A stretch of 64,000 nt of DNA from Sphingosinicella microcystinivorans (lineage in GTDB: Bacteria; Pseudomonadota; Alphaproteobacteria; Sphingomonadales; Sphingomonadaceae), in NCBI RefSeq assembly GCF_027941835.1, contig NZ_CP116005.1, forward strand, positions 2,929,501 through 2,993,500, in the 5' to 3' direction. This document shows positions 8,344 to 13,475 of the stretch, in pieces. The first letter of the stretch is position 1; each line of letters opens with the position of its first letter. The notes beneath the pieces are model-generated. The model was not told the DNA's origin and ran no database searches. It saw only the letters and a program-made list of their open reading frames with translations. The translations under genes were made by a program, and so were the position numbers.

Positions 8344-8676
8344 TCAGTTCCGATCGTCGCGCGGCTTGGGGCGTTTCCACGTCAGGCGGAACGTCCGCCC
8401 ATCGTCGTCGGCACGGAACAGCACCGGCCGGAACGGCGCCGCAAAGAGCGGGCTGTCGATCTCCAATGCGATGTAGTTGCCCGCGCGTTCGCCGACCCGT
8501 TTCCACGCCCCGCCGACCTCCGGGCCGTCCTCGTCGTCGAGATGGACGCGGTAGTCCGGCGCATTCTCGGCGTCGCCCGGATCGATCGCGACCAGCACGA
8601 TCTGCTCGTCGATACCGAAATAGCGAGCGCGGCCCGCATAGCCGTTGGCGGTGGATTCAAAGATATTGGTCGGCAT
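8344..8676 (-). CDS. DUF736 family protein
   Basis: This small acidic protein of 110 residues starts MPTNIFESTANGYAGRARYFG, which is characteristic of DUF736 proteins found almost only in alphaproteobacterial conjugative elements and plasmids. No enzymatic motif is visible, and the family's role is unknown. A clear AAGGAGAT site lies upstream of the ATG. The start lies inside the end of the traF-type peptidase gene (20-base overlap), so the two are probably translationally coupled. Confidence 0.9.
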   Translation of the reverse strand: MPTNIFESTANGYAGRARYFGIDEQIVLVAIDPGDAENAPDYRVHLDDEDGPEVGGAWKRVGERAGNYIALEIDSPLFAAPFRPVLFRADDDGRTFRLTWKRPKPRDDRN

Positions 8677-9235
8677 GGCCGATCTCCTTGGCTTCGGGGG
8701 TTGAAGAGGGTGAGGACGTCGCGCGCAGATGCAGCGGCGTTGCGCGGCCGATCACGGCGGAGGCCGGAAGCGGGCCGAAATAGCGCCCGTCCAGACTGTC
8801 GGAATGGGCGGGATTGAGTAGCAGCAGTTCGCCCGCTCGCAGCGTGCGGCAACCCTGCCAGTCCGGCAGCGGACGGCCTTGGCCGTCACGCGCGCGGGCG
8901 CTGGCGACGGGCCGCGCATCGACGCTCACCACGGCGCCGATGCGGCACACACGCTGCCCGGCCTTGGCCGCGACCTGCTTCAGCAGCGGCACACTTTCGG
9001 GCAGATAGCCGCGCCCGGCCATCCAGCGCGACCACCGCGCGGGCGGTGCAACGGCGACCAGGGCGCCGTTGGCCGGATCGCGGTCGGGATGGATGCGATA
9101 AAGCCCGATCGGCGCGCTGGCGCTGGCGTTCCAGATGACGCGCGGGAGCGGATCGACGATGGCGACGGCGACGAACGAGGTCGCGAAGGCGGACGCGGCA
9201 ATCGCCGTTGCGAGGACATAACGGCGGCGCGTCAT
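8657..9235 (-). CDS. traF: TraF-type conjugation signal peptidase (S26)
   Basis: This membrane peptidase of 192 residues is likely to process and cyclise the TrbC pilin. One N-terminal membrane segment (about residues 6-27, VLATAIAASAFATSFVAVAI) is followed by the S26 serine region SASAPIGLYRI and the general-base lysine region ESVPLLKQVAAKAG. A C-terminal PAHSDSLDGRYFGPLPASAVIGRA box follows. That layout matches the TraF/S26C family. The ATG at 9235 overlaps the DUF2840 stop (ATGA), which fixes the start; the longer open frame extending upstream is out-of-frame read-through. Confidence 0.9.
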   Translation of the reverse strand: MTRRRYVLATAIAASAFATSFVAVAIVDPLPRVIWNASASAPIGLYRIHPDRDPANGALVAVAPPARWSRWMAGRGYLPESVPLLKQVAAKAGQRVCRIGAVVSVDARPVASARARDGQGRPLPDWQGCRTLRAGELLLLNPAHSDSLDGRYFGPLPASAVIGRATPLHLRATSSPSSTPEAKEIGHADQYL

Positions 9236-9819
9236 CCCTCGATCTCCCGGCGCTTGAGCCAGGCGCGATGCCGCTCCATCGTGTAGGGGCGCGGCGAGTG
9301 TCCCGCGGCGATGCGGTTGTGAACGTGACGCCAATGGTCGGCCGCCGCGTCGCAGGGATCGACGCCCGCCGCCTCCACCGCGTCGATCGCGGCGAGCACT
9401 TGCTGGACTTTGGGCCAGCTTTCGGCGTGCAGGAGGATGTCGCCGCCCGGCCGCACGAACGGCAGCGTCGTATAGGGTTCGCCCGGCGCGACCGCGCGCA
9501 CGATGTCGATGCGCGATGTGATCGTGCCATAGTCGTTGGCCGCCCATCGGACGAAGGCGAAGATCGCGGCGGGCCGAAAGCCGACCACGCGCGTCTTGCG
9601 CGTGAGGATGCGGTCCTGTGCGATCCGGCCGAAACGTATCCAGTGCTCCAGCCGCTGCTCGATCCAGGTCAGTTCCACCTCGGTCAACCGGGATCGGGAG
9701 GCGACGGCGGTCGGGACAGGCGGATCACGGCGGACCGCTTCCCGTTCCGCCGCCTGGCGGCGTAGCGCGGCTTCAAACCCGCTGAAGTCGATGCGCGCCG
9801 GGCGCGCGGGGTCGTTCAT
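9232..9819 (-). CDS. DUF2840 family protein
   Basis: This protein of 195 residues contains the motif RLTEVELTWIEQRLEHWIRFG and the WP..V..VL.AID..EAAG pattern near residues 130-150, which I recognise as DUF2840. It is a family of unknown function restricted to the RepA-ParA-TraF region of alphaproteobacterial elements. No membrane segment or catalytic motif is seen. It overlaps the methyltransferase gene upstream and traF downstream by four bases on each side, so it belongs to one translationally coupled chain from the PP-loop gene to traF. Confidence 0.88.
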   Translation of the reverse strand: MNDPARPARIDFSGFEAALRRQAAEREAVRRDPPVPTAVASRSRLTEVELTWIEQRLEHWIRFGRIAQDRILTRKTRVVGFRPAAIFAFVRWAANDYGTITSRIDIVRAVAPGEPYTTLPFVRPGGDILLHAESWPKVQQVLAAIDAVEAAGVDPCDAAADHWRHVHNRIAAGHSPRPYTMERHRAWLKRREIEG

Positions 9820-11261
9820 CGTTCGTCTCCTGGGATGTCGATGGGGGTTCGCCCGAGCGCGAGGTCGAGCGCGGCTTCGACGCGCAGGATCGCGCGGCCG
9901 ATGGCTTCGGGGATTTGCGGAAGAACGGCGTCGCCGAACGCCTCGACGATCAGGCTGGCCGCAGCCGTCCCTTTGCGAGTGCCGAGCGCAATGCGCGTGT
10001 CAGCCACCCAGGCGGATAGCCCATCATCCAGCCGTAGGTGATGGGCAAGGCCGCCGTTCCAGTCAGCCCATGGCTCCGCAGCATCGCCGCCAGCGCGCGG
10101 GCCCCCGCCCATTTGTCCGGCGCCCGGTCGGTCATCGCCCCATCCAGAACCGCGTCCATCGTCGGCGATTTCCGGCGATCGTAGGCCGGACTCCATCCGT
10201 CCATGCGGCTGTCCCGTTTGGTCGGGGTGGGGAGGATTTCCGTCGTGGTCACGCGGATCATGTGCCGCGTCGAATGCGTCCGAAGCCCCGATCCGCTCTT
10301 GTTGCTGCCGTAGTCGCACGCCACCGGGGTCGGCAGCATCGTCTCCGCGTGACGGAGCAGGTTCGGCGTGTCGATCTGCGCCTTTGCGCCGTTTGCTCGC
10401 TTGCCCGTCTCGATCTCCTGTCGGCTCAATCTGCGGCCGCCGTTCGGTTTGACCGGCGTCGGCATCATCCCGGCATGACGGCTGGCATGGCCCTGCAACT
10501 GGCTGAGAACATCGCCCCGGCCGCCGCGATCCGCGTCCGACTTGCGCGGTGTCGCGAGGATCATGCGAAGCGGATATGTCGATCCCGCCCCGCCGCCCGC
10601 GCCATCCATCATCCCGTCCGATGCCATCGGCGTCGGCAGCGGGCGATTGCGGAACAGGTTGTAGAGGCCCGATTCCTTCATCGCCCGGCGCCCCCCCGAA
10701 CCACCCTCCAGACGGATGCCGCCCTGCTGGGATTGCGATACCGGCGTAGGCAAGCTGGCGGGGGTCGTAGCCGATAAGCCAGGATCGCTTGCGAACATGG
10801 TTGGCGCCGACATTGTCAGCACCCACCACGCACGGTTCGCAGGCGTAGCCGATCGCTTCCAGTTCGCCGAGCAGCCGGTCAGCGCCGCGAGTTCGGAGAT
10901 TAGCGCTGTTCTCAAAAGCGAACCAGCGAGGGCGGCAATCTGCGACCAGGCGGACGGCTTCGAGGTAGAGGCCCGACCGCTCGCCTTCGATGCCCCGGCC
11001 TTTGGTGTTGGCGCTGGAGATGTCCTGGCACGGCGGCGATCCGACGATGATGTCGGGGAGCATCCCAAGGTCTGAAAGAAGTCGAGCTGCCGTGAGGTCG
11101 CGCACGTCGGCGTAGAGGCGGACATGGGGATTATTCTCCGCATAGAGGATGCGCCGCCATTCGATGATCTCGCAGGCCGCGATGGTGACGAAACCGGCAC
11201 GGTGGAGGCCGAGCGACCAGCCGCCCGCCGCCGCGCTGAACAGGTCGAGCGCGCGCATCAT
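9816..11261 (-). CDS. DNA (cytosine-5) methyltransferase with displaced central frame
   Basis: The frame starting MMRALDLFSAAAGGWSLG has C5-methyltransferase motif I (DLFSAAAGG), motif IV with the catalytic cysteine (GSPPCQDIS), a motif VI variant (ENS) and a motif VIII-like HVRKRSW. At its C-terminus is motif X (FGDAVLPQIPEAIGRAI). From about 10770 down to about 9990, however, coding-type sequence lies in another frame. That frame shows repeated LPTP/ATP elements (LPTPMASDG, ATPRKSDADRGGRGD, LPTPTKRDS) and YGWMMGYPPGW, typical of the recognition part of this family. The annotated frame has no stop, so a 481-residue protein is possible, but its centre is R/D/P-rich and probably non-functional. 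Start chosen by ATGA overlap with the PP-loop gene. Confidence 0.8.
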   Translation of the reverse strand: MMRALDLFSAAAGGWSLGLHRAGFVTIAACEIIEWRRILYAENNPHVRLYADVRDLTAARLLSDLGMLPDIIVGSPPCQDISSANTKGRGIEGERSGLYLEAVRLVADCRPRWFAFENSANLRTRGADRLLGELEAIGYACEPCVVGADNVGANHVRKRSWLIGYDPRQLAYAGIAIPAGRHPSGGWFGGAPGDEGIGPLQPVPQSPAADADGIGRDDGWRGRRGGIDISASHDPRDTAQVGRGSRRPGRCSQPVAGPCQPSCRDDADAGQTERRPQIEPTGDRDGQASKRRKGADRHAEPAPSRGDDAADPGGVRLRQQQERIGASDAFDAAHDPRDHDGNPPHPDQTGQPHGRMESGLRSPEIADDGRGSGWGDDRPGAGQMGGGPRAGGDAAEPWADWNGGLAHHLRLDDGLSAWVADTRIALGTRKGTAAASLIVEAFGDAVLPQIPEAIGRAILRVEAALDLALGRTPIDIPGDER

Positions 11262-12406
11262 TCGCACAGCCCATATTCGCTGTCGCAGCGCAGGCCGTGC
11301 TCGTCGGCCTCGCGCTGCTCCAGATCGAGGAACAGGTCGTAATTGTGGCCGCCCCGGCCGGTGCGCGACCATGCGATCGCGCGGTCGATGGTCGCCCGGC
11401 CGTGGTCGGCGGGATCGCCGGGGACGGTCGGCGCGGGCAGCAGCGATGCCGGGGTGCCGGTGACGGCGGTGCGTCGGGACACGAGTCCGACCAGCCGCTC
11501 CCATTCGCGGACCCGGTCCACCTCGGCGGGGAAGCGCATGGCCCAGGCGCGCAGTTCGCGCTTCCTGACCATGATGCAGGTTGAGCAGCCGACGCGGCTC
11601 ATCCCCATCGTGTAGAGCGGGTTATGGCGGAGGCCGTGGCGCTCGGAGATGGCGAAGGCGTCGGCGGCCGACCAGCGGAAGATGGGGCGATAGAGCACCT
11701 CGCGCGCTCCGGTCGGATGCCGTTTCGACTGGATGGGCGGCTTTTTCGCCCGCGCCGGACTTTCGTCGGCGCGCTCGCCGATCCAGTCGATGATCGACAG
11801 CCCCGCGTCGAGCAGCGGGCGCTTGCGGTGCATCATCGGGATCAGCTTCGTCTCGTCGGTGCAGAAGCGCGTTTTGGTCCCCGGAAACCGGCCGTGGAGC
11901 ATGACCATGTCGAGGAACGGGATCCCGGTAGGATGCAGCAGCCCCAGCGCCTGCTCGATCAGAGGATCGGGGACCGGGGGCGAGACCAGCACCGAGCAAT
12001 TGCATCCGGCGATCCACTCGACCCTGGTGATCGTGCCTGCCTGCCAGGCCGCGCGGCGCTGGTTGCAGGCGCCCTTGTGACGGGTCCGGCGCTTTTCCTT
12101 CGACCATTCCTCCCGCAGCATCGCGCGCTTGCGGGCGAAGGCCGACGCATCGGTGAGACCAGGCACGTCGTTCGCCGAGACGATTTCGATGCGGAGGCCG
12201 ATGCGGCGGCAGAGCCAGTCGTCGAGATAGGCGATGTGATCGAGCGTGATCGGGTTTTCGTGGCCGTTGTCGGCCGAGAGGAAGCGCGGCGCGCGGTTGC
12301 CGAACGCGGCCAGCCCCTTGCGCTCGATCCGCTCGACCATCTTGCAGAGGACGGCCTGGCTGTCCTTGCCGCCCGAGATGCTGCCGAAGTGCTGGACGGC
12401 GATCAT
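11258..12406 (-). CDS. PP-loop ATP pyrophosphatase (PAPS-reductase-like)
   Basis: This 382-residue protein opens with a PP-loop, SISGGKDSQAVL, at about residues 9-20, the ATP-pyrophosphatase signature shared by PAPS reductases, DndC and tRNA-thiolation enzymes. A cysteine pair occurs late (RVGCSTCIMV, about residue 290), and additional cysteines near residues 120-140 (GACNQ, GCNCS) could hold a metal or Fe-S centre. It lacks the standard cysteine arrangement of assimilatory PAPS reductases as far as I can recall. It overlaps the C5 methyltransferase gene by four bases, suggesting joint action on nucleic acid. Function not established; DNA sulfur modification is one possibility. Confidence 0.75.
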   Translation of the reverse strand: MIAVQHFGSISGGKDSQAVLCKMVERIERKGLAAFGNRAPRFLSADNGHENPITLDHIAYLDDWLCRRIGLRIEIVSANDVPGLTDASAFARKRAMLREEWSKEKRRTRHKGACNQRRAAWQAGTITRVEWIAGCNCSVLVSPPVPDPLIEQALGLLHPTGIPFLDMVMLHGRFPGTKTRFCTDETKLIPMMHRKRPLLDAGLSIIDWIGERADESPARAKKPPIQSKRHPTGAREVLYRPIFRWSAADAFAISERHGLRHNPLYTMGMSRVGCSTCIMVRKRELRAWAMRFPAEVDRVREWERLVGLVSRRTAVTGTPASLLPAPTVPGDPADHGRATIDRAIAWSRTGRGGHNYDLFLDLEQREADEHGLRCDSEYGLCE

Positions 12407-12440
12407 GGCCGCCCGTCCACAACGCGAATCCGCGTTAGCA

Positions 12441-12457
12441 AGAATCCGAAGGATTCT
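12441..12457. promoter_or_regulatory. Perfect palindrome upstream of the PP-loop gene
   Basis: AGAATCC-GAA-GGATTCT is a 7-bp perfect inverted repeat with a three-base centre, 35 bp before the ATG of the PP-loop gene and next to an AT-rich stretch. The size and position fit an operator for a dimeric repressor; no T-run follows, so it is unlikely to be a terminator. The regulator is unknown; RepA and the AlpA-like protein are both encoded nearby. Confidence 0.4.
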
Positions 12458-12590: not shown

Positions 12591-13475
12591 TCATGGCTGG
12601 TTATCCACAACCTTGAGACCGACGCGGCGCATGGCGGCATCGAGAGGATCGACGGGCATCGGCACGAAGTTCAGCCGCTCGCGACCGAAGGCGTGCTCGA
12701 TCGTGAGCGTGTATCCCGGCAGCGGCTGGCGGCGGACGATACCGCGCAGCTCGAACGCGAATTGCTTGAGCGGCGACAGCACGCCGGACTTGAGATGGAG
12801 ATGGGCGAAGTCGAACGACCAGCCGCCCTTCTGGCGGCCGCCATGCTTGCGCACGATCCGGTAGAGCCAGCGTTCCAGCCCCCCGGTCAAACCGAAATAG
12901 GCGCGGTCGATCGTGAGGACGAACGTGCGATCGACCACCCCCGCATAGAACCAGTCGGGCAGAATCAACTCGATCCCGAGCGGCCGTCCCGCGCCGTCGA
13001 GCCGCTCCTGCCATTCGTTGATCCACGAAAAGCGATGACGGCGGCGCTGGTGCTGCTGGCGGATCGAAGTCGCGACCGTAGTCGATTGCAGGCGGTCGAG
13101 CGCCGCTTTCAGACGATCATAATGATCCTTGCCGGTGCCGCGCCCGGTGAAGGCCAGGATTTCGTGGGGTGTCGCGGCCATCAGGCGCGAGGTCGGCAGC
13201 CCGGCATCGCGCGCGGCGACGATCTGGCTTGCCGCCCATATCAGCACGTCGGCGTCCCATATGGTCGCCATCCCATGTTCGGGGATGGCCTCGACCGAGA
13301 TCCATGTCTGCCCCATGCGGAAGTCGATCGGGGTCACGCGCCTGCGCTTGGCGAGGCTGAAGAACGGCCAGGCCATGAGGTCCTGGGCATCGCGCGGCGC
13401 GATATCGCCGCCGAGCGAGGGAAACAGCGCAAGCTGGGCGCGTTCGCCGGAACGGGATGCTGCGCGCGGTTTCAT
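12591..13475 (-). CDS. repA: Replication initiator protein A (RepA)
   Basis: This 294-residue protein belongs to the RepA family common in alphaproteobacterial plasmids and ICEs. Recognisable stretches are DLMAWPFFSLAKRRR, IEVRAIPEHGMATIWDAD-type sequence (here VEAIPEHGMATIWDAD), ILAFTGRGTGKDHYDRLKAAL and the winged-helix region GGLERWLYRIVRKHGG. In ICEs such proteins can support transient replication after excision. The gene overlaps the AlpA-like regulator by four bases and is followed at once by three iteron-like repeats. No ParA gene follows, unlike related elements. Confidence 0.92.
   Translation of the reverse strand: MKPRAASRSGERAQLALFPSLGGDIAPRDAQDLMAWPFFSLAKRRRVTPIDFRMGQTWISVEAIPEHGMATIWDADVLIWAASQIVAARDAGLPTSRLMAATPHEILAFTGRGTGKDHYDRLKAALDRLQSTTVATSIRQQHQRRRHRFSWINEWQERLDGAGRPLGIELILPDWFYAGVVDRTFVLTIDRAYFGLTGGLERWLYRIVRKHGGRQKGGWSFDFAHLHLKSGVLSPLKQFAFELRGIVRRQPLPGYTLTIEHAFGRERLNFVPMPVDPLDAAMRRVGLKVVDNQP

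Follow-up and report, generated by a model that had tools for sequence, protein, structure and literature searches.

A 64,000-nucleotide stretch of Sphingosinicella microcystinivorans DNA (RefSeq assembly GCF_027941835.1, contig NZ_CP116005.1, positions 2,929,501 to 2,993,500; hereafter the window, with positions counted from its first letter) carries a conjugative element whose transfer operon includes a C5-cytosine methyltransferase gene. The frame-0 open reading frame (ORF) of this gene, here called alpha, occupies positions 9816-11261 of the minus strand and encodes 481 residues (PF00145, E = 8e-30; phrog_363). Nested within it, in the +1 frame of the same strand, is a second ORF at 9950-11125 (391 residues; phrog_1008, E = 7.2e-12), a putative gene here called beta. 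Alpha is preceded by the gene for a PP-loop protein resembling 3'-phosphoadenosine 5'-phosphosulfate (PAPS) reductase (11258-12406, minus strand; 382 residues with an SGGKDS loop; PF01507, E = 7.8e-14; phrog_424) and followed by DUF2840 (9232-9819, minus strand; PF11000, E = 4.7e-76). The initial annotation of this DNA had described the PP-loop gene as overlapping the methyltransferase gene by four bases; the coordinates (shared bases 11258-11261), the SGGKDS loop and both protein assignments are borne out, and so is the overlap of the methyltransferase with DUF2840 inside the transfer operon, likewise of four bases (9816-9819). As a whole this account of the genes is partly confirmed; it missed the second coding frame inside the methyltransferase ORF.

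Two Reading Frames in the Methyltransferase Gene

Alpha carries the C5 motifs I-VIII in residues 1-170, among them the catalytic motifs PPCQ (76-79) and ENS (117-119), followed by a low-complexity middle and by motif X at the C-terminus (FGDAVLPQ, 9915-9938, minus strand). The PF00145 match is confined to residues 2-167, with a conserved tail at the extreme end, and the phrog_363 match runs over residues 1-464 yet uses 266 profile positions, so that some 200 residues of the middle are extra. In the usual C5 layout the recognition domain and motif IX stand on the same chain as motifs I-VIII; here both are found in the +1 frame. Read in that frame, the middle consists of LPTP-type target-recognition modules (A, C, D, F, G and H at 10037-10753, minus strand, assigned by tabulating modules across the loci of the element, plasmids and phages) and then a motif IX-like YGWMMGYPPGW (10004-10036, minus strand). 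The modules keep a fixed order from A to H, with A, B, E and G gained or lost as whole units, and in one element copy (L016; loci are designated by L numbers) the recognition region is reduced to F and H. Simple repeats in the middle had been considered as a stand-alone feature and were rejected, being accounted for by the +1 modules.

Both frames are under selection. In an alignment of 15 pooled element copies the catalytic part is nearly invariant while the middle varies in length and sequence. Substitutions per 100 codons at codon positions 1/2/3 were 7.2/4.6/20.9 for residues 1-170, a frame-0 wobble pattern, and 28.2/9.2/7.7 for the middle, where the wobble falls on frame-0 position 1. Codons of the middle that differ by a single change comprise 4666 nonsynonymous and 424 synonymous cases in frame 0; these intervening 230 or so residues of frame 0 are not a reading frame under selection. 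A 20-column window at motif X, with wobble from residue 432, returns to frame 0 (3.4/0.0/20.1; the entire C-terminal segment gives 10.8/7.1/12.0). Sliding along the alignment shows a clear +1 pattern from about residue 204 onward; the columns of residues 178-203 mix different modules and are fast at all three positions. All positions are slow over the final 40 or so codons ahead of motif X (12-13/8-9/3-7), which is what importance of both frames in this stretch would predict. The same comparison was made for three phage groups, of 10, 3 and 5 loci. Their motif-IX stretch changes in the manner of +1 codons (0/0/9.5, 8.9/8.9/26.7 and 9.3/8.0/30.0) and the stretch past it in the manner of frame-0 codons; recognition stretches of greater length were too diverged for the codon-position test.

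Frame 0 is nevertheless kept open across the +1 region. Openness was assessed by shuffling synonymous +1 codons and counting the resulting frame-0 stops. The 16 element loci contain none, with 0.9-5.7 expected per locus (single-locus P 0.0005-0.32). In 39 non-identical viral loci there were 0 stops against 106.6 expected, compared with 196 against 186.2 in a control frame. A version with a stricter entry rule, to which some named phages and a plasmid were added, had 0 against 114.1 over 43 loci. Because the sequences are related and hence not independent, none of these figures is a formal probability. In one locus (L150) about seven LPTP-type modules stand in +1 and frame 0 remains open for about 480 codons, with 0 stops against about 10 expected.

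These patterns bear on a rival view, in which only the frame-0 protein is made, with its middle as a disordered insert and with a +1 signal that stems from composition or from the remains of a decayed recognition domain. Standard annotation does give frame 0 in most of the named records examined, and alpha possesses the C5 motifs save IX and the recognition domain. The excess of nonsynonymous change in the middle, however, fits +1 coding, motif IX is conserved in +1 (0/0/9.5 in one of the phage groups), and the PHROG library holds a family for beta itself (phrog_1008), which leaves this alternative very improbable.

Distribution in Phages and Plasmids

The same hidden two-frame arrangement, as far as sequence comparison can tell, turns up in many unrelated phages. 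The +1 recognition motifs accompany a frame-0 motif X in Rhizobium phages, in Paracoccus and Bosea plasmids, in mycobacteriophage Nitzel, in Sulfitobacter phage phiGT1 and in a Synechococcus phage. A viral set of 71 IMG/VR contig loci, gathered with four methyltransferase queries and including some isolate phages and some near-identical sequences, pairs a +1 motif IX with a frame-0 motif X in 50 cases; frame 0 is open up to motif X in 47 of these, with an earlier stop in L051, L053 and L054. Three further loci have motif IX in +1 relative to motif X with both displaced. The remaining 18 yielded no motif pair under the pattern used, and several of them appear dual-frame by eye (L056, L057, L066, L088, L095-L097 and L147). 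Some of a small group of loci, L049-L054, carry later recognition modules in other frames. L087 and L091 (the latter on the same contig as L146) have a +1 first module, with everything else in the recognition region and both motifs in frame 0; in L148 all of these parts lie in +1.

The +1 product is homologous to recognition domains that other enzymes carry in frame. A hidden Markov model (HMM) trained on 42 phage and plasmid +1 segments, with element copies excluded, finds the +1 frame of the window at E = 2.2e-19 and the frame-0 proteins of L091 and L087 at 1.3e-17 and 9.4e-15; in frame 0, neither the window nor any other element copy tested gave a match. L087 and L091 also give weaker +1 matches (6.7e-6 and 5.1e-5). 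In Paenibacillus phage Bloom the two frames are annotated separately, as an outer BLOOM_56 and a wholly nested +1 BLOOM_57, both termed DNA cytosine methyltransferase. BLOOM_56 matches phrog_363 at 7.9e-91 and BLOOM_57, of 234 residues, matches phrog_1008 at 6e-72 over residues 1-231, the inner ORF being preceded by a strong Shine-Dalgarno-like site (-11.6). An Acidovorax phage has the +1 frame as its annotated coding sequence. These annotations provide independent support for the beta product as a real family.

This breadth also speaks to the notion that assembly or sequencing errors have shifted the frame. One locus, L043, does show a displaced frame that its near-identical relatives lack. 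The same two frame switches recur, however, in the pooled element loci, in two Paracoccus plasmids and one Bosea plasmid and in several named phages, and error as a general explanation is scarcely credible.

Probable Initiation of Beta

All 15 element loci have a +1 ATG at codon 45 of alpha (11125-11123), the probable start of beta, which would be translated separately from alpha. This ATG is preceded by a Shine-Dalgarno-like GGAG (11136-11139, minus strand; duplex energy -6.6); the mean energy at this place over the 15 loci is -6.1, compared with -2.4 to -2.5 at the start of alpha. The ATG needs a T-ending codon, which is kept in 15 of 15 loci as against 27 of 104 other His/Tyr codons. At a second candidate site, GYDAEW, 21 of 39 codons are T-ending with 12.3 expected; as a universal start of beta this ATG was rejected, being present in some clades only. 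A TTG start at LPTP was likewise rejected as a general solution, many phages having TGG, TTC or TAC there and L016 having frame-0 CTC GCC.

Twelve residues past the beta ATG the +1 frame encodes a peptide resembling sliding-clamp-binding motifs (QLDFF in the window, 11075-11089, minus strand, by a relaxed pattern), with QLDFF, QLDLF or QLALF in 13 of 15 element copies. Across 78 distinct loci a QLxLF-like pentapeptide occurs in +1 in 27, where 0.50 would be expected, and in none in the other two frames. The pattern ranks joint first of 120 permutations, tied with a near-equivalent only, the next pattern reaching 19. On the strength of this motif the N-terminal part of beta may dock on the replication sliding clamp.

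Programmed frameshifting could also bring the +1 frame into a protein, either through two shifts, into +1 past motif VIII and out of it ahead of motif X, which would yield one conventional single-chain methyltransferase, or through a single +1 shift, which would yield a second chain made up of the catalytic domain and the recognition region. In favour of this, the +1 motifs of the element loci open at a near-invariant CAG/CAA CTT GCC (CTT in 15 of 16), and the +1 product is homologous to in-frame domains. Across phages, however, there is no common slippery codon, ATT, GTG, GTT, CTG, GCT and others standing before GCC or TCC, and the second junction is not conserved either (AAA GGG, AAG GGG, CGC GGG); a programmed -1 site at that junction, A AAG GGA, was rejected for the same reason. 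Uninterrupted frame 0 is itself conserved, and Bloom has a separately annotated beta with its own Shine-Dalgarno-like site. Frameshifting thus seems rather unlikely, and separate initiation is preferred because a shared slippery site is missing, frame 0 is conserved and strong internal starts are present in some relatives.

The PP-Loop Gene and the RepA-DUF2840 Slot

The neighbourhood of the pair is that of a conjugation core. The DUF2840 gene shares four bases with that of the conjugative signal peptidase TraF (8657-9235, minus strand; PF10502; TIGR02771 at 85.8 bits, under the cut-off of 100.25), RepA lies on the other side of the PP-loop gene (12591-13475, minus strand; PF10134, E = 3e-85), and relaxase/DUF3363 and TraG are close by. 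The interval between RepA and the PP-loop gene contains a hairpin-like palindrome, AAGAATCCGAAGGATTCT (12440-12457), which also separates RepA from DUF2840 in three loci lacking the pair (L109, L114 and L122). Its presence in loci without the pair marks it as part of the backbone, and it may be a terminator or a regulatory site.

A pattern-based scan of a species-genome collection returned 19 PP-loop loci. The order PP-loop, methyltransferase, DUF2840 was found in 16 of 16 close-relative loci with downstream sequence (L002-L017, from fewer than 16 genomes, some of the loci sharing a genome), more than chance would give. Within this lineage of elements the transfer operon carries the pair as a fixed component, as the initial annotation had supposed. 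The hosts are mainly Sphingomonadaceae, with Acidomonas, Nitratireductor and a Paraburkholderia plant symbiont in addition; the copy in the last (L017) is a decayed operon segment with several genes frame-broken. In two distant relatives (L019 and L020) the PP-loop gene was found alone. An order-wide survey of 396 genomes found DUF2840 in 76 and the PP-loop gene in 5, at nine places. Eight of these adjoin DUF2840, the remaining one being the second half of one of these genes, severed at a contig end. In Sphingomonas sanguinis SB4 (L016/L018) contig ends cut the PP-loop gene at residue 152; an insertion may account for the break, or a repeat that interrupted the assembly.

Linkage is not obligate on the methyltransferase side: Paracoccus has a 65-67% identical methyltransferase at three loci on two plasmids without a PP-loop match, placed between DUF2840 and TraF in two of the three. 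The slot between RepA and DUF2840 had been said normally to hold parA, with the pair replacing it. Among 30 DUF2840 loci (the best-scoring, one per genome, out of a longer list) ParA occupies the slot in seven, a DPPY-type methyltransferase in two and the PP-loop/methyltransferase pair in four; no gene was found between RepA and DUF2840 in seven, and no RepA was found there in ten. The statement on parA holds in part, and replacement of parA as a rule is not supported. The counts show a variable slot of which the pair is one of several occupants. An ORF resembling DPPY-motif DNA methyltransferases adjoins DUF2840 in L124 (480-1223) and L127 (2004-2777), an upstream RepA being seen in L127 only, so that the slot seems to acquire different methyltransferase classes.

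Whether the two genes travel together was approached through fourfold-site differences from the window. In L011 and L015 these were 37% and 27% for the PP-loop gene and 22% and 25% for the methyltransferase core, lower than for RepA (52% and 49%) and DUF2840 (52% and 45%). The contrast between the PP-loop gene and its neighbours is small or absent in L007 and L013; L003 shows it relative to RepA (39 to 17%) and not relative to TraF (17%). The figures for L011 and L015 suggest, without proving, that the pair has been exchanged as a unit between distant backbones.

The PP-loop protein itself belongs to a phage PAPS-reductase-like group (phrog_424, E = 1.8e-43); searching viral contigs with the alignment of this protein turned up a single relative. 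It does not qualify as an assimilatory PAPS reductase: its best PAPS-reductase matches in NCBIfam, PRK02090 (E = 3.9e-8, 33.2 bits) and cysH (TIGR00434; E = 1.7e-4, 21.6 bits), fall far under their cut-offs of 154 and 165.1. Partial profile matches were obtained to SspD (2e-12), BrxP (7.5e-10) and DndC (8.9e-5), the last limited to residues 175-251. The only sequence match in the PDB up to E = 0.01 is a CysH (E = 0.0091). A structure model, with a mean predicted local distance difference test score (pLDDT) of 69.8, matches PAPS and adenosine 5'-phosphosulfate (APS) reductases and TtuA-type sulfurtransferases at E 0.001-0.005. Among 13 aligned sequences C182 and C274 are invariant, C277 is present in all except L005, and C374 and C381 are kept in all rows that reach them.

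The initial annotation had taken the PP-loop protein and the methyltransferase to be one DNA-modification module with sulfur or thiol chemistry. The 16 of 16 linkage, the four-base overlap, the conserved cysteines, the partial SspD, BrxP and DndC matches and the lower divergence of the pair in L011 and L015, with the joint movement it suggests, would all suit such a module. Set against them are the three loci on two Paracoccus plasmids, where the methyltransferase is retained in this region but no PP-loop gene accompanies it, and two Rhizobium phages with the alpha/beta gene (L021 and L022), neither of which is among 35 phage records with a PP-loop match. PP-loop relatives, moreover, stand near different DNA methyltransferase classes or none (a methyltransferase is annotated within 2.5-3 kb flanks in 7 of 10 hand-picked records), and the fourfold-site divergence of the PP-loop gene in L007 and L013 is close to that of its neighbours. 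A joint sulfur chemistry appears unlikely on this balance, and that interpretation of the operon is, taken as a whole, partly supported.

A Probable Two-Chain Methyltransferase

We regard it as probable that the locus encodes a two-chain C5 methyltransferase from same-strand overlapping genes, probably serving anti-restriction. Alpha would supply the catalytic domain with motifs I-VIII together with motif X, its non-conserved low-complexity linker being merely the out-of-frame reading of the beta gene, and beta would supply the modular recognition region with motif IX. The two chains are predicted to assemble into one C5-cytosine methyltransferase, and gain or loss of whole modules in beta would alter its sequence specificity. 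The enzyme most likely modifies element DNA around replication in a new host, allowing the element to escape restriction. This role in establishment is proposed because the gene lies in the transfer operon, because no restriction nuclease is among the neighbours scanned around the methyltransferase, and because of the precedent of M.EcoGIX (discussed below). A wider generalization, in which a very large C5 family of phages and conjugative elements is an overprinted two-gene system with a constant engine, alpha, and a swappable clamp-docking beta that marks DNA during copying, is offered tentatively, the chances standing somewhat against it.

Several observations weigh against the two-chain proposal or parts of it. 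The viral shuffle test covered 39 of the 50 loci, those with a stop in the +1 stretch and duplicate segments having been removed. In L049-L054 frame 0 is interrupted by a stop near codon 190, so that it is not open in every relative; these loci may be an intermediate form, a differently split form or the product of assembly trouble. L011 and L015 have a weak Shine-Dalgarno-like site (-2.9), and some clades retain the alternative ATG at GYDAEW while others have lost it, so that the start is not uniform. The QLxLF-like peptide was noticed post hoc, 13 of the 27 loci with it belong to one lineage and 51 of 78 are without it; a QMSLF also occurs once in +1 of L152, one of two conventional single-frame methyltransferases examined. 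L087 and L091 are not clean single-frame enzymes for comparison, because their first module is still in +1. In an AlphaFold model of the joined protein the catalytic domain is confident and most of the recognition region has pLDDT below 50.

If the two-chain reading holds, the recognition domain of many cytosine methyltransferases of phages and integrative and conjugative elements has been read in the wrong frame, and what databases list as unrelated 'DNA methyltransferase' families are its two frames. An annotated ORF cloned with altered codons would then produce an enzyme without its specificity part, a possible reason for methyltransferases found inactive or 'silent'. The arrangement would also constitute a widespread case of long same-strand overlapping genes held over large distances, with near-single-frame relatives for comparison, and a natural model for the assembly of split methyltransferases. 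Module shuffling would offer a route to predicting or swapping specificities, and the clamp-type motif a direct, testable link between replication and protection of the element.

Comparison with Known Methyltransferase Systems

In M.EcoHK31I the small-chain gene overlaps the large-chain gene out of frame. In the PHROG library phrog_363 matches alpha and phrog_1008 matches beta, both being termed 'DNA methyltransferase'; the library holds them as independent families, and its output is silent on any overlap of the genes. The openly licensed literature searched, in the portions available, yielded no description of an out-of-frame methyltransferase recognition domain. A related case is the methylase of mycobacteriophage ShiLan, in which an open out-of-frame coding region is likewise hidden inside the gene; there the insert is an HNH homing endonuclease, found in some phages, whereas here it is the methyltransferase's own recognition domain, and the accessible text of that paper mentions neither 'target recognition' nor 'motif IX' (PMC11855218). 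Sliding-clamp-binding proteins carry QL(S/D)LF or QLxLF, in the available text at their C-termini (PMC9690074, PMC4549789), whereas the peptide of beta is N-terminal and in the window has the form QLDFF.

For the proposed function a parallel is M.EcoGIX, a single-strand methyltransferase that protects an entering conjugative plasmid and is tied to replication; like the enzyme proposed here it belongs to a conjugative element and shields incoming DNA, but it makes m6A, and the portions of the paper available describe no overlapping-frame subunit (PMC7736820). For the proposed architecture, M.EcoHK31I and M.AquI are C5 methyltransferases that work as two chains according to the available text (PMC3404938). 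M.AquI is a split C5 enzyme broken within the variable region, as here, but its small chain carries IX and X, whereas X is on the large frame-0 chain in the present case (PMC3404938). M.EcoHK31I resembles the proposed enzyme, with motif IX on the small chain and I-VIII and X on the large, a division that in the window is drawn from reading frames only; its predicted recognition domain is on the large chain, whereas here it would travel with motif IX on the small +1 chain (PMC3404938).

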